Shown here: in pieces, positions 10,646-49,545 of the stretch
Position numbering within the stretch: position 1 is the first letter of the stretch
How the letters are laid out: every line of letters starts with the position of its first letter
Origin: Bacteroidota bacterium
Lineage (GTDB): Bacteria > Bacteroidota > Ignavibacteria > Tepidaquicellales > Tepidaquicellaceae
Reading direction: 5' to 3'
Assembly (NCBI GenBank): GCA_018266845.1
Contig: JAFDZO010000009.1
Location: forward strand, 62,253-126,252
DNA: 64,000 nt
Made by a program: the position numbers and the translations under genes
The notes under the pieces: generated by a model
What the model was told of the DNA's origin: nothing
Database searches by the model: none
The model's input: only the letters and a program-made list of their open reading frames with translations

Positions 10646-10754
10646 CCTTACCAAACTCTGTTTGGTAAGGTATATAGTGCGAAACTTCGTTTCGCATTTA
10701 AAAGCGGAACAGAGTTCCGCCCAATATTTCCGTCCCAAACAGAGTTTGGGACGG
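10646..10754. repeat. Cluster of four short hairpins with trinucleotide loops
   Basis: Four perfect stem-loops follow each other: 10646-10670 (11-bp stem, loop TCT), 10678-10696 (8 bp, loop TTC), 10704-10720 (7 bp, loop AGA) and 10730-10754 (11 bp, loop AGA). Each stem ends at its loop as (A/G)AAC...GTT(T/C), so the cores read AAC-TCT-GTT or AAC-AGA-GTT with different outer arms. They lie in the 287-nt gap between the opp operon end and the AraC gene. They are not terminators (no T-runs) and look like clustered copies of a dispersed palindrome. Confidence 0.85.
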
Positions 10755-10816
10755 AGTATTTTCTATCTTAAAATTCAATTTACTTAAACAATCTATCAAT
10801 AATTTTCAAAGTTATA

Positions 10817-20998: not shown

Positions 20999-21020
20999 AA
21001 TCATTTAGTATTTGTAATCA

Positions 21021-21068
21021 TATAAAAAAAGCTTCTTCAATTAATTAATTGAAGAAGCTTTTTTTATA
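21021..21068. terminator. Strong bidirectional intrinsic terminator
   Basis: AAAAAAAGCTTCTTCAATT and its complement make a 19-bp perfect stem with A-run and T-run on either side, 22 nt behind the stop at 20998. Confidence 0.93.
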
Positions 21069-21213
21069 TGATAATAGTCTATTAACTATCTTCTGCGAAT
21101 TAATTATAACTATTGATTTTTATTATTAATATAAGTAGGTTTCTTGAAATTCTCTCAAAACCGGCAGGTTTTGAATTCGGCGATTCACTTAAATTTTAAT
21201 TTAACTATTCTTT

Positions 21214-23331: not shown

Positions 23332-25935
23332 ATGAAAAATTATAAATATGTTTTTGCGCTAACTGTTCTATTAGTATCTGCTTTCTTTATCTATAAATTT
23401 ATGCCTTCGGGTAATGAAGTAACTAAGAGCAGTCCAAGAATTTCAGGAGATTCTTTAATAAATCCTAATACAGAATATCTGAAAGAAGTCAGATTTTCTC
23501 ATGACGGAAGTATGGCATTTGAAGTTCCTATTTCCGAAATAATGGGCAGGGAACAAAAATATGGTCCATTAAAATCATTAAGAATTCCTAAGAAGGGAGA
23601 AGAAAGAGAAGGTCCTGATAGAACTAACCTAAAGCAAAACCCGGATGCGCCTCTTACTTCACAATATCCGCCGTCGGATTCAAAAGTGAATAATAACGGA
23701 AATCCTTCTGATGCACCGCAAACCGCCGGAATAAAGTTTAATGGTTCATCTGGCACCAGCGCAGGAGGACCTTTTCCTCCCGATGTTATGGGAGAAGTAG
23801 GACCGACTCAATATATTGTGCACGTTAACGGTCAGTTAATTTCTTACAATAAAACGACAGGTATTGCAGATGGAGTATTAAATACAACTCCCGACAATTT
23901 TTTTGCCAGCGTAATGTCATCCAATAGCGGCACATATACATCAGACCCTCGAATTAAATATGATAGGTTATCAAAAAAATGGTATTTCTTAATAATAGAT
24001 GTTCCGGCTGGCACAGGAGCAATTGCTAACAGAGTATTAGTCGGCGTAAGCCCTGACAGCGTTATTACAGGTTCGACAATAATGAAGTTCTTTTTCTATC
24101 AACACACAACTACATTTTGGGATTATCCAACTTTAGGCGTTGATGCAAATGCATTATATATAGGCGGAAATTTGTTTACTCTTGCAGGCGGATCGTATTC
24201 AAATACAACTGCTATTGTAATAAGGAAATCCTCTATACAGGCAAGCGGTCCGATGGTAACAACAAGTATGGGAAATTTTTTAGCAACTTCTACCAGTTCT
24301 GGAATTTACACTCCGCAGGGAGTAGATAACCCTGACCCTGCTGCCACGGAAGGATATTTAGTAGGAGTTGATAATGCAGTTTTCAGCAGGATAGTTATTA
24401 AAAGAATTTCAACTCCCGGAGGAACTCCTACTATTTCAGGAGATTTAAACGTTACAGTCTCAACTACGACTTCTCCAGTTTTAGTGAACCATTTAGGCAA
24501 TTCCGGCGGTACTAATGGACGCCTTGATGTATTAGACGATAGACTTTATATGGCTCAAATGAGAAACGGAACATTATGGACTGCCCATAACGTAGGGGTA
24601 AATAATACCGGTGTTTCAAGTTCTGCTACTCGAACAGGAACAAGATGGTATCAGTTTAGTAATTTAACTACTACACCAATTTTAACACAATCAGGAACTG
24701 TATTTGACGCTACGGCTAATGTTGATAACTATTGGATTCCTACAATAGCTACGTCAGGACAAAATCATACTGCAATTTCGTATAGCTTTGCAGGAGCTAA
24801 CAGCAGAATTAATACTGGTACTGTAGGAAGACTTTCTTCTGACGCATTAGGCACCATGCAAACACCTTTAGCGCTTTCAAATAATTCAACTTTTGCATAT
24901 AACCCAACGGGAGACCCCGGTGGACCATCACGAAGATGGGGTGATTACTCTTCCATAAGAGTTGACCCGAATGACGACATGACTTTTTGGGCTATAAATG
25001 AATATTGCAGCGCAAACAATGTTTACGGCTGCTATGTGGCTCAGCTAAAAGCTCCGCCTCCGGCAACTCCTTCTTCAATAAGTCCTTCAAGCGTTCCGAT
25101 TGGTTCTAACATATCTGTTACGCTAACCGGAACATCGGTAAGCGGGTCGGGATTTTTTGACCCGGGTTCGGGCTTTGCTAATCATTTAAGCGTTGCTATT
25201 GACGGCGGAGTTGTGGTAAACTCGGCTACTTATGTGAATGCAACTACAATCAATTTGAATGTTACAACTACCGGAGCTACGCAAAATACAACCAGACTTG
25301 TAACAGTAACAAACCCTGACGGGCAGACATCATCTGCAACGATATTTGCAGTATTACCTGTGGAGCTTGCATCTTTTACTTCAGCGGTAAATAAGAATGA
25401 TGTTAGATTAAACTGGTCAACTGTTTCAGAAGAAAATAATTCAGGATTTGATATTGAAAGGAAATTGACTGCAGGAAATGACTGGAAGAAAATCAGCTTT
25501 GTTCAAGGCAGCGGAAATTCAAACACTACAAAAAATTACGAATTTGTTGACAGAAAAATTGAATCAGGAAAATATAATTACAGACTGAAGCAGATAGACT
25601 ACAACGGAAACTATAAGTACTATGATTTAGGAACTGAGGTTCAGGTTGGCGTTCCGTCAAAATTTGCTTTGTATCAGAATTATCCGAATCCTTTCAATCC
25701 TTCTACAAAGATTGATTTCGATATGCCTGAAAACGGAAATGTTACGCTAAAAATTTATGATTTGACAGGCAAAGAAGTGAAAACTTTGCTGAACGGAAAT
25801 AAAACAGCAGGATATTACTCCCATAGCTTTAATGCTTCAGCGCTTTCAAGCGGAATATATTTTTATTCAATTGTAATTACAGGTGAAAGCGGCAGCAGGT
25901 ATAGCTCTGTAAAGAAAATGATGTTAGTAAAATAG
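23332..25935 (+). CDS. Large secreted protein with IPT/TIG-like and T9SS domains
   Basis: An 867-residue protein. The first 22 residues form a signal or membrane anchor (YVFALTVLLVSAFFIYKF). Residues about 140-590 form one large domain of unknown type with GGPFPPDVMGEVGPTQYIVHVNG and RRWGDYSSIRVDPNDDMTFWAINEY, a pattern I have seen in secreted proteins annotated only as hypothetical. An IPT/TIG-like beta domain (PSSISPSSVPIGSNISVTLTG) follows near 595-680, then the segment VLPVELASFTSAVNKNDVRLNWSTVSEENNSGF and the T9SS tail (NYPNPFNPSTKIDF ... KKMMLVK). Shares the last two segments with the protein at 27402. Cargo function unknown. Confidence 0.85.
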   Translation: MKNYKYVFALTVLLVSAFFIYKFMPSGNEVTKSSPRISGDSLINPNTEYLKEVRFSHDGSMAFEVPISEIMGREQKYGPLKSLRIPKKGEEREGPDRTNLKQNPDAPLTSQYPPSDSKVNNNGNPSDAPQTAGIKFNGSSGTSAGGPFPPDVMGEVGPTQYIVHVNGQLISYNKTTGIADGVLNTTPDNFFASVMSSNSGTYTSDPRIKYDRLSKKWYFLIIDVPAGTGAIANRVLVGVSPDSVITGSTIMKFFFYQHTTTFWDYPTLGVDANALYIGGNLFTLAGGSYSNTTAIVIRKSSIQASGPMVTTSMGNFLATSTSSGIYTPQGVDNPDPAATEGYLVGVDNAVFSRIVIKRISTPGGTPTISGDLNVTVSTTTSPVLVNHLGNSGGTNGRLDVLDDRLYMAQMRNGTLWTAHNVGVNNTGVSSSATRTGTRWYQFSNLTTTPILTQSGTVFDATANVDNYWIPTIATSGQNHTAISYSFAGANSRINTGTVGRLSSDALGTMQTPLALSNNSTFAYNPTGDPGGPSRRWGDYSSIRVDPNDDMTFWAINEYCSANNVYGCYVAQLKAPPPATPSSISPSSVPIGSNISVTLTGTSVSGSGFFDPGSGFANHLSVAIDGGVVVNSATYVNATTINLNVTTTGATQNTTRLVTVTNPDGQTSSATIFAVLPVELASFTSAVNKNDVRLNWSTVSEENNSGFDIERKLTAGNDWKKISFVQGSGNSNTTKNYEFVDRKIESGKYNYRLKQIDYNGNYKYYDLGTEVQVGVPSKFALYQNYPNPFNPSTKIDFDMPENGNVTLKIYDLTGKEVKTLLNGNKTAGYYSHSFNASALSSGIYFYSIVITGESGSRYSSVKKMMLVK

Positions 25936-25946
25936 TTTTTTAAAAA

Positions 25947-26074
25947 TTTCCCTTCCGAACATTATCCGCATTAACGGATGTTAATCTCGGAATGAGATTA
26001 AGCTTTTGAAACAAAAGCGGTTATCCCGTAACGGGATATGAGCTTCGGAATGAAGCAATAATTCGGAAGGGAAA
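25947..26074. repeat. Five tandem hairpins enclosed by a 13-bp outer stem
   Basis: TTTCCCTTCCGAA at 25947-25959 is the exact complement of 26062-26074. Between the arms are five hairpins in a row: 25964-25979 (5-bp stem, loop CATTAA), 25981-26001 (8 bp, loop GGAAT), 26002-26018 (7 bp, loop AAA), 26022-26038 (7 bp, loop TAA) and 26042-26056 (5 bp, loop GGAAT). A run of T follows the right arm. The whole folds as a closed multibranch structure just after the stop at 25935. It may terminate transcription, but its architecture goes far beyond a terminator. Confidence 0.85.
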
Positions 26075-26168
26075 ATTTTTTATCCCCCCTTAATTCGCAG
26101 AAATTTTACAATTCCTTTAATTGACTGCGCAATTCATTCTTCGTAATTTTATTGTTCAATCCAAATCA

Positions 26169-26393
26169 ATGCTGCCCGAAAATTTAATAAATCCGTTTTC
26201 TTATACTATTTCAGATATTGTATATGATGAGAAGGAAGAGCTTTTGGTTGTAATGTTTAGCAACGGTAAGATAGAGGAGTTTTACGGAGTGATAAAAGAA
26301 ATGTATGAGGAATTGATGCACTCCTATTTCAGGGATAAATATTTCCACACCTACATAAAAAACGTTTACGATTTTTATTTTGTAAAAAGCTAA
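26169..26393 (+). CDS. KTSC-like small protein
   Basis: A 74-residue protein counted from ATG at 26169; an in-frame TTG at 26121 would add 16 residues but is less likely. The segment ISDIVYDEKEELLVVMFSNGKIEEFYGV followed by MYEELMHSYFRDKYFHTYIKNVYDFY matches the KTSC domain pattern (beta-strands with YD, LxVxFxxG, then the helix and IKxxYxxY). The canonical K-T-S-C-type residues of the helix are not obvious. Such domains are thought to be nucleic-acid related, but no role is shown. It stands alone between the hairpin element and the desaturase gene. Confidence 0.65.
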   Translation: MLPENLINPFSYTISDIVYDEKEELLVVMFSNGKIEEFYGVIKEMYEELMHSYFRDKYFHTYIKNVYDFYFVKS

Positions 26394-48845: not shown

Positions 48846-49545
48846 AGAGACGCAATGTAACTTTATTTCGGTTACGACTCTCCTACGTTGTAACCAATCG
48901 AAATTTCAGCAAGAATCTTGCCGCCGTGTGCAATGTATTTATAGAGACGCAATGTATTGCGTCTCTACGTAATACCAGAGCATTGCACTGGGAAAACTAT
49001 TTATTCTGCATATAACGCTGCTGCGTTGCAGCCAATCGAAATTTCAGCAAGAATCTTGCCGCCGTGTGTAATGTATTTATAGAGACGCAATGTATTGCGT
49101 CTCTACCTAGTGCCGGAGCATTGCAGTGGGAAAACTATTTATTCTGCATATAACGCTGCTGCGTTGCAGCCAATCGAAATTTCAGCAAGAATCTTGTCAA
49201 CGTGCGCAATGTATTTATAGAGACGCAATGTATTGCGTCTCTACGTAATACCGGAGCATTGCAGCGGGAAAACTATTTATTCTGGTTACGACGCTCCTGC
49301 GTTGTAACTAATCGAATTTCAGCAAGAATCTTGCCGCCGTGTGCAATGTATTTATAGAGACGCAATGTATTGCGTCTCTACTTAGTGCCGAGTATTGCAG
49401 CGAGAAAAACCTTCTTATTCCGATTACAACGCTCCTGCGTTGTAACCAATCGAAATATCAGCAAGAATCTTACCAACGTGCGCAATGTATTTATAGAGAC
49501 GCAATGTATTGCGTTTCTACGTAGTGCCGGAGCATTGCAGCGGGG
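48846..49545. repeat. 138-bp tandem repeat array with two hairpins per unit
   Basis: The word AGAGACGCAATGTA starts at 48846, 48943, 49081, 49219, 49357 and 49495. The last five are exactly 138 bp apart, while the first step is 97 bp, a shortened edge unit. Each unit has hairpin A, AGAGACGCAA-TGTA-TTGCGTCTCT, and hairpin B with core ACGC-TCCT-GCGT or ACGC-TGCT-GCGT flanked by variable arms (for example GTTACG/CGTTGTAAC-like near 49284-49307). Spacer words AATCGAAATTTCAGCAAGAA and CCGGAGCATTGCAG are conserved. Copy 1 is most diverged. It occupies the 909-nt gap between divergent genes. Confidence 0.93.

Follow-up and report, generated by a model that had tools for sequence, protein, structure and literature searches.

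The five hairpins enclosed in one long outer stem at positions 25947-26074 of the window (the whole stretch of 64,000 nucleotides analysed here) are probably best explained as a conserved structured RNA of about 128 nucleotides. This RNA would be transcribed rightwards and would form a six-way junction with GNAA(N) loops; its role, as set out below, is one that we infer. That we are dealing with a genuine, lineage-restricted structured RNA which is absent from Rfam is well supported by its structure, its strand and its conservation, as far as comparison of sequences can tell. As a kind the element is ordinary, since many orphan bacterial RNA motifs are known; as a family it is new, and its design is rather regular. 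The comparison covers the window and two relatives, one from the same genus (G015) and one from another genus of the family (G016, an Ignavibacteria MAG, contig JAGPCH010000075.1). The features of the element and its surroundings are as follows.

23332..25935, + strand: T9SS-sorted secreted protein (Por_Secre_tail), the upstream neighbour; orthologue of gene A, not of gene B, of the relatives
25947..25959, + strand: outer stem, 5' strand, TTTCCCTTCCGAA; from the fold, with two compensatory pairs in the orthologues
25963..25980, + strand: hairpin 1, TATCCG-CATTAA-CGGATG; from the fold, with one compensatory pair
25981..26001, + strand: hairpin 2, TTAATCTC-GGAAT-GAGATTAA; five-pair core conserved, loop GCAAA in G015 and GTAAT in G016
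26002..26018, + strand: hairpin 3, GCTTTTG-AAA-CAAAAGC; loop position GAAAC, with GGAAA in G015 and GGAA in G016
26022..26038, + strand: hairpin 4, TATCCCG-TAA-CGGGATA; loop position GTAAC, with GGAAT in G015 and GGAAA in G016; two compensatory pairs
26042..26056, + strand: hairpin 5, GCTTC-GGAAT-GAAGC; from the fold, loop GGAAT in G015 and GGAAC in G016; two compensatory pairs
26062..26074, + strand: outer stem, 3' strand, TTCGGAAGGGAAA; followed by a T6 run (about 26076-26081) in the window only
26121..26149, + strand: block TTGAC[A/T]-N17-TAATTT, kept in three species; candidate promoter of the KTSC gene
26169..26393, + strand: KTSC-domain gene, 74 aa (PF13619, E 9e-12), the constant downstream neighbour

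The first-pass annotation, made from the letters of the window, had described a perfect 13-bp outer stem around five hairpins with recurring loops. Folding bears this out: positions 25947-25959 pair with 26062-26074, and the loops in the window are GGAAT (twice), TAA, AAA and CATTAA. The TAA and AAA loops are triloops, and if the closing G-C pair is counted as loop they become GTAAC and GAAAC. The minimum free energy of positions 25927-26094 is -57.1 kcal/mol, compared with -32.6 +/- 4.2 kcal/mol for shuffles (z -5.9), and 0 of 200 dinucleotide shuffles were as stable as the window fold. We also scanned 304 kb of DNA from the same genome for chains of hairpins, requiring stems of 5 bp or more and allowing gaps of up to 8 nt. 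The scan yielded a single chain of five, which is the element itself, and two chains of four, both in a different, repeated element. Order-1 shuffles of the same 304 kb (12 replicates) gave zero chains of five and 0.25 chains of four per replicate.

The element was not found by sequence search alone when blastn was run across the family. Its syntenic place in G015 and G016 was located by means of the fatty acid desaturase gene that lies two genes downstream of it, since both relatives carry close homologues of the window's desaturase. The gene order in each is a T9SS-sorted protein, the element, the KTSC gene and the desaturase, and the element in both relatives aligns at about 75% identity with the same fold. 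Folded separately, the two sequences form the same five hairpins within the outer stem (z -5.2 for G016 and -2.9 for G015), and RNAalifold recovers this fold from the three-sequence alignment without being given the structure.

How well has the pairing been kept as the sequences diverged? With the alignment corrected by a shift of one base in hairpin 1 of G015, standard pairs occupy 116 of the 120 pair cells in the three species (96.7%). Seven pairs have changed on both sides and are still paired, two each in the outer stem, hairpin 4 and hairpin 5, and one in hairpin 1; in hairpins 2 and 3 almost nothing has changed, so that neither contributes covariation. Counted by species comparison, 6, 6 and 2 double changes keep the pair and 0 break it. 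When the 3' partners are slid by one to three columns, pairing falls from 94% to at most 56%. In a further control, as many substitutions were scattered randomly over the stems, 20,000 times per species pair; pairing was kept to the observed extent in 0, 6 and 116 of these trials for the three pairs. The covariation score was equalled in 1 of 500 column shuffles, a control that leaves relatedness in and draws on three sequences only; three are too few for a phylogeny-aware covariation test of the R-scape type. Candidate structured RNAs are recognized by compensatory changes that support one structure in independent genomes, and such changes are seen here in the three sequences. The first-pass annotation had staked its structured-RNA reading on the finding of covariation or of copies in related genomes. 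Both are there: the orthologous loci of the two relatives show the compensatory changes, and selection appears to act on the folded RNA itself.

The same pairs also carry information about the strand. The + strand has eight G-U cells and zero A-C cells, which marks it as the functional one. For G015 the folding energy is -41.8 kcal/mol on the + strand but only -28.4 kcal/mol on the - strand, where its G-U pairs turn into A-C and the layout is lost. This asymmetry fits an RNA that is read on the + strand, not a DNA cruciform or an RNA of the - strand; with the covariation, it supports the structured RNA suggested at first pass. Taken together, the 8:0 asymmetry and the strand-specific folding lend indirect support to transcription of the candidate RNA. 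No conserved terminator or promoter could be shown for the element as an independent transcript.

The most regular part of the design is the set of loops. The sequence GNAA is present in 12 of the 12 loops of hairpins 2-5 in the three species, and 11 of these have one extra base, which is never G. These loops could be GNRA-like, or they could be NAA triloops with G-C, G-U or G-A as the closing pair. Several bases in the junction linkers are likewise invariant across the three species. The regularity of the loops suggests repeated binding sites. Sponges of the CsrB/RsmZ type, in which CsrA is bound by an array of hairpins with GGA loops, come to mind here. The element resembles them as an array of short hairpins with similar loops, several of which are GGAA. 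It differs from them in that the constant part is GNAA and not GGA, the latter occurring in 2 of the 5 window loops, and in the outer stem that encloses the array. A CsrA gene was found in 0 of the 29 family genomes, including that of the window, and the positive controls were detected. The absence of CsrA from these 29 genomes, together with the constancy of GNAA, rules out a CsrB-like CsrA sponge as the family to which the element belongs, although it may work in a sponge-like manner with a protein other than CsrA.

A covariance model built from the three sequences finds only these three loci in the 29 family genomes, with one convincing match per genome. Searches of 44 genomes of the order and of samples of 341 genomes of the class and 396 of the phylum returned no further loci, under stricter filters that could miss diverged members. 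Weak matches to the model (E 0.07-1) were read and judged to be due to chance; most are evidently coding and lack the fold. A degenerate pattern for hairpin 5, run over the genome contigs, returned only the G016 record and chance matches without structure, and the phage and viral collections held no match to the element. Nothing in Rfam 15 (4227 families) scored above the gathering threshold for the window, G015 or G016 sequences, the scores being at chance level. The candidate structured RNA motifs that have come from comparative genomics (PMC2864571, PMC6429828), and that are collected in Rfam, are similar in that they are intergenic and covarying, with a multi-stem junction and conserved loops and linkers. 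In contrast to these, the present element matches no Rfam family and is known from three genomes only.

In the reading that we favour, the RNA would be transcribed rightwards, in the same direction as its neighbours, and a closing stem of 12-13 bp and five short hairpins would form the six-way junction, with four of the hairpins ending in GNAA(N). The similarly oriented loops may serve as docking sites for several copies of one RNA-binding protein, or they may make tertiary contacts. The molecule would then be either a small RNA or a structured untranslated RNA that is kept beside the KTSC gene.

One alternative is that the element belongs to the gene in front of it, as a structured 3' UTR or an elaborate terminator that protects or ends the mRNA of the T9SS gene. 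We regard this as possible but doubtful. In the window the two are co-directional, the element begins 11 nt past the T9SS stop codon, and AAAATTTTTT follows the outer stem; this T9SS gene has no other terminator there, and nearby T9SS genes end in ordinary hairpin-T terminators. However, the association is with a position and not with a gene. In G015 (L035:5891-10963) and G016 a tandem pair of T9SS-protein paralogues, A and B, lies upstream (gene A of G016 runs off the contig end), and it is B that precedes the element. The single upstream T9SS gene of the window has 77% identity to A and 57% to B. Gene B is absent from the window, the break point lies just before the outer stem and the element is intact. 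Since B is common to the genus-mate and to another genus, the simplest account would be a loss in the window lineage that removed both B and the terminator of A, which in G015 is of the ordinary hairpin-T kind, in a break that ended just before the outer stem. The element would then have been kept intact with a new upstream neighbour, which speaks for a unit of its own and not just the 3' end or UTR of B. Its position behind a T9SS gene, which was pointed out at first pass, is thus true of the window but probably incidental, as the upstream T9SS gene differs between species while the KTSC gene is constant.

The remark made at the same time that this is not a usual terminator fares better. An intrinsic terminator has a stem followed directly by a conserved T run, whereas the T6 run is found after the stem in the window only and no T run follows it in G015 or G016; a terminator scan reported none at the element. 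The likeness to intrinsic terminators lies in a stem behind a gene and in the T6 run of the window. The difference lies in the five hairpins within the stem, which, with their conserved loops and linkers, a terminator does not need. In the window the T6 run behind the outer stem may additionally end the transcript of A, whose own terminator would have been lost with B.

The gene behind the element offers a second alternative: the element may serve the KTSC gene as a leader or in autoregulation, the small protein binding to the hairpins and thereby controlling the messenger from which it is made. We consider this unlikely. The Pfam text on KTSC suggests RNA binding, and the KTSC gene is the constant downstream neighbour in all three genomes. 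Elsewhere KTSC is called a DNA-binding domain (PMC9503650), so that binding of nucleic acid, of one kind or the other, has been proposed for these proteins. Close relatives of the window KTSC protein within the family are found in exactly the three genomes with the element. Against a leader, the fatty acid desaturase co-occurs with the element too, and an RNA of this kind is missing beside the other KTSC genes found in the class: the covariance model finds nothing next to them, the second KTSC gene of G015 included. Partnership between the KTSC protein and the RNA is thus only a possibility, and the link may be mere linkage.

Furthermore, about 95 nt separate the element from the KTSC start codon, and the conserved promoter-like block lies inside this interval, so the messenger may exclude the RNA. 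A promoter consensus scan did not score the block, and neither the Bacteroidota-type consensus (TAnnTTTG) nor the sigma-70 consensus is enriched upstream of 144 genes of the same genome. We only infer a promoter of the KTSC gene here, because no consensus has been established for this genome.

A more ambitious proposal, to which we also give little credence, is that the element represents a new class of small RNA, in which the six-way junction and the same-facing GNAA loops assemble copies of a dedicated protein, possibly KTSC, into an RNP that is peculiar to this lineage of the Ignavibacteria.

Beyond the well-studied phyla, few structured RNAs have been catalogued. The present one, compact and with clear covariation from few sequences, carries a regular array of GNAA loops in a lineage where CsrA was not found. 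It offers a tractable start for the study of RNA-binding partners in Ignavibacteria.

The first-pass annotation had also raised a nested stack of palindromic insertions. Such a stack, or a mobile palindrome of the MITE or REP-like type that acts at the level of DNA, is very improbable. Dispersed hairpin arrays of other sequence do occur in the genome (window 10646-10756, with many copies), and template switching can keep the arms of a palindrome alike, but the element is single-copy in its own genome and in both relatives, the whole unit is orthologous in one place in three species, its G-U pairs come without A-C mismatches, its loops and linkers are conserved, and its long outer stem is kept over 100 nt. 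MITE and REP-like elements occur as multiple dispersed copies, and a genome-wide blastn search found only the element itself above noise. As this case illustrates, counts of G-U against A-C cells, together with synteny, can tell a visual cluster of hairpins from mobile palindromes. The dispersed arrays also differ in their loops (CTCTG/CAGAG) and in their inverted layout, and kinship of the five-hairpin RNA to these four-hairpin arrays was rejected on loops, layout and copy number.

The dispersed arrays deserve a description of their own. They are elements of about 115 bp with four hairpins and the loops CTCTG/CTCCG and CAGAG, found at window 10646-10756, at L086:12950-13061 and at loci L092-L111. 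There are 44 blastn matches in the window's genome (both strands, fragments and lone hairpins included), about a dozen of which are near-full-length, and 15 in G015. Hairpins 3-4 repeat hairpins 1-2 as their reverse complement, which makes the unit an inverted repeat of palindromes (REPIN-like), and differences in the stems between copies occur in a paired way. Matches to the Y1-transposase (PF01797) are found in the window's genome and in G016, and none in G015, although G015 carries the repeats.

Two further palindromic features were seen in the window. At 48942-49519 there is a tandem array of about five units of about 138 bp, each with the palindrome TAGAGACGCAATGTATTGCGTCTCTA. At 21017-21072, between two genes, lies a perfect palindrome of 28+28 bp without a spacer (ATCATATAAAAAAAGCTTCTTCAATTAA and its complement), which is possibly a bidirectional terminator.
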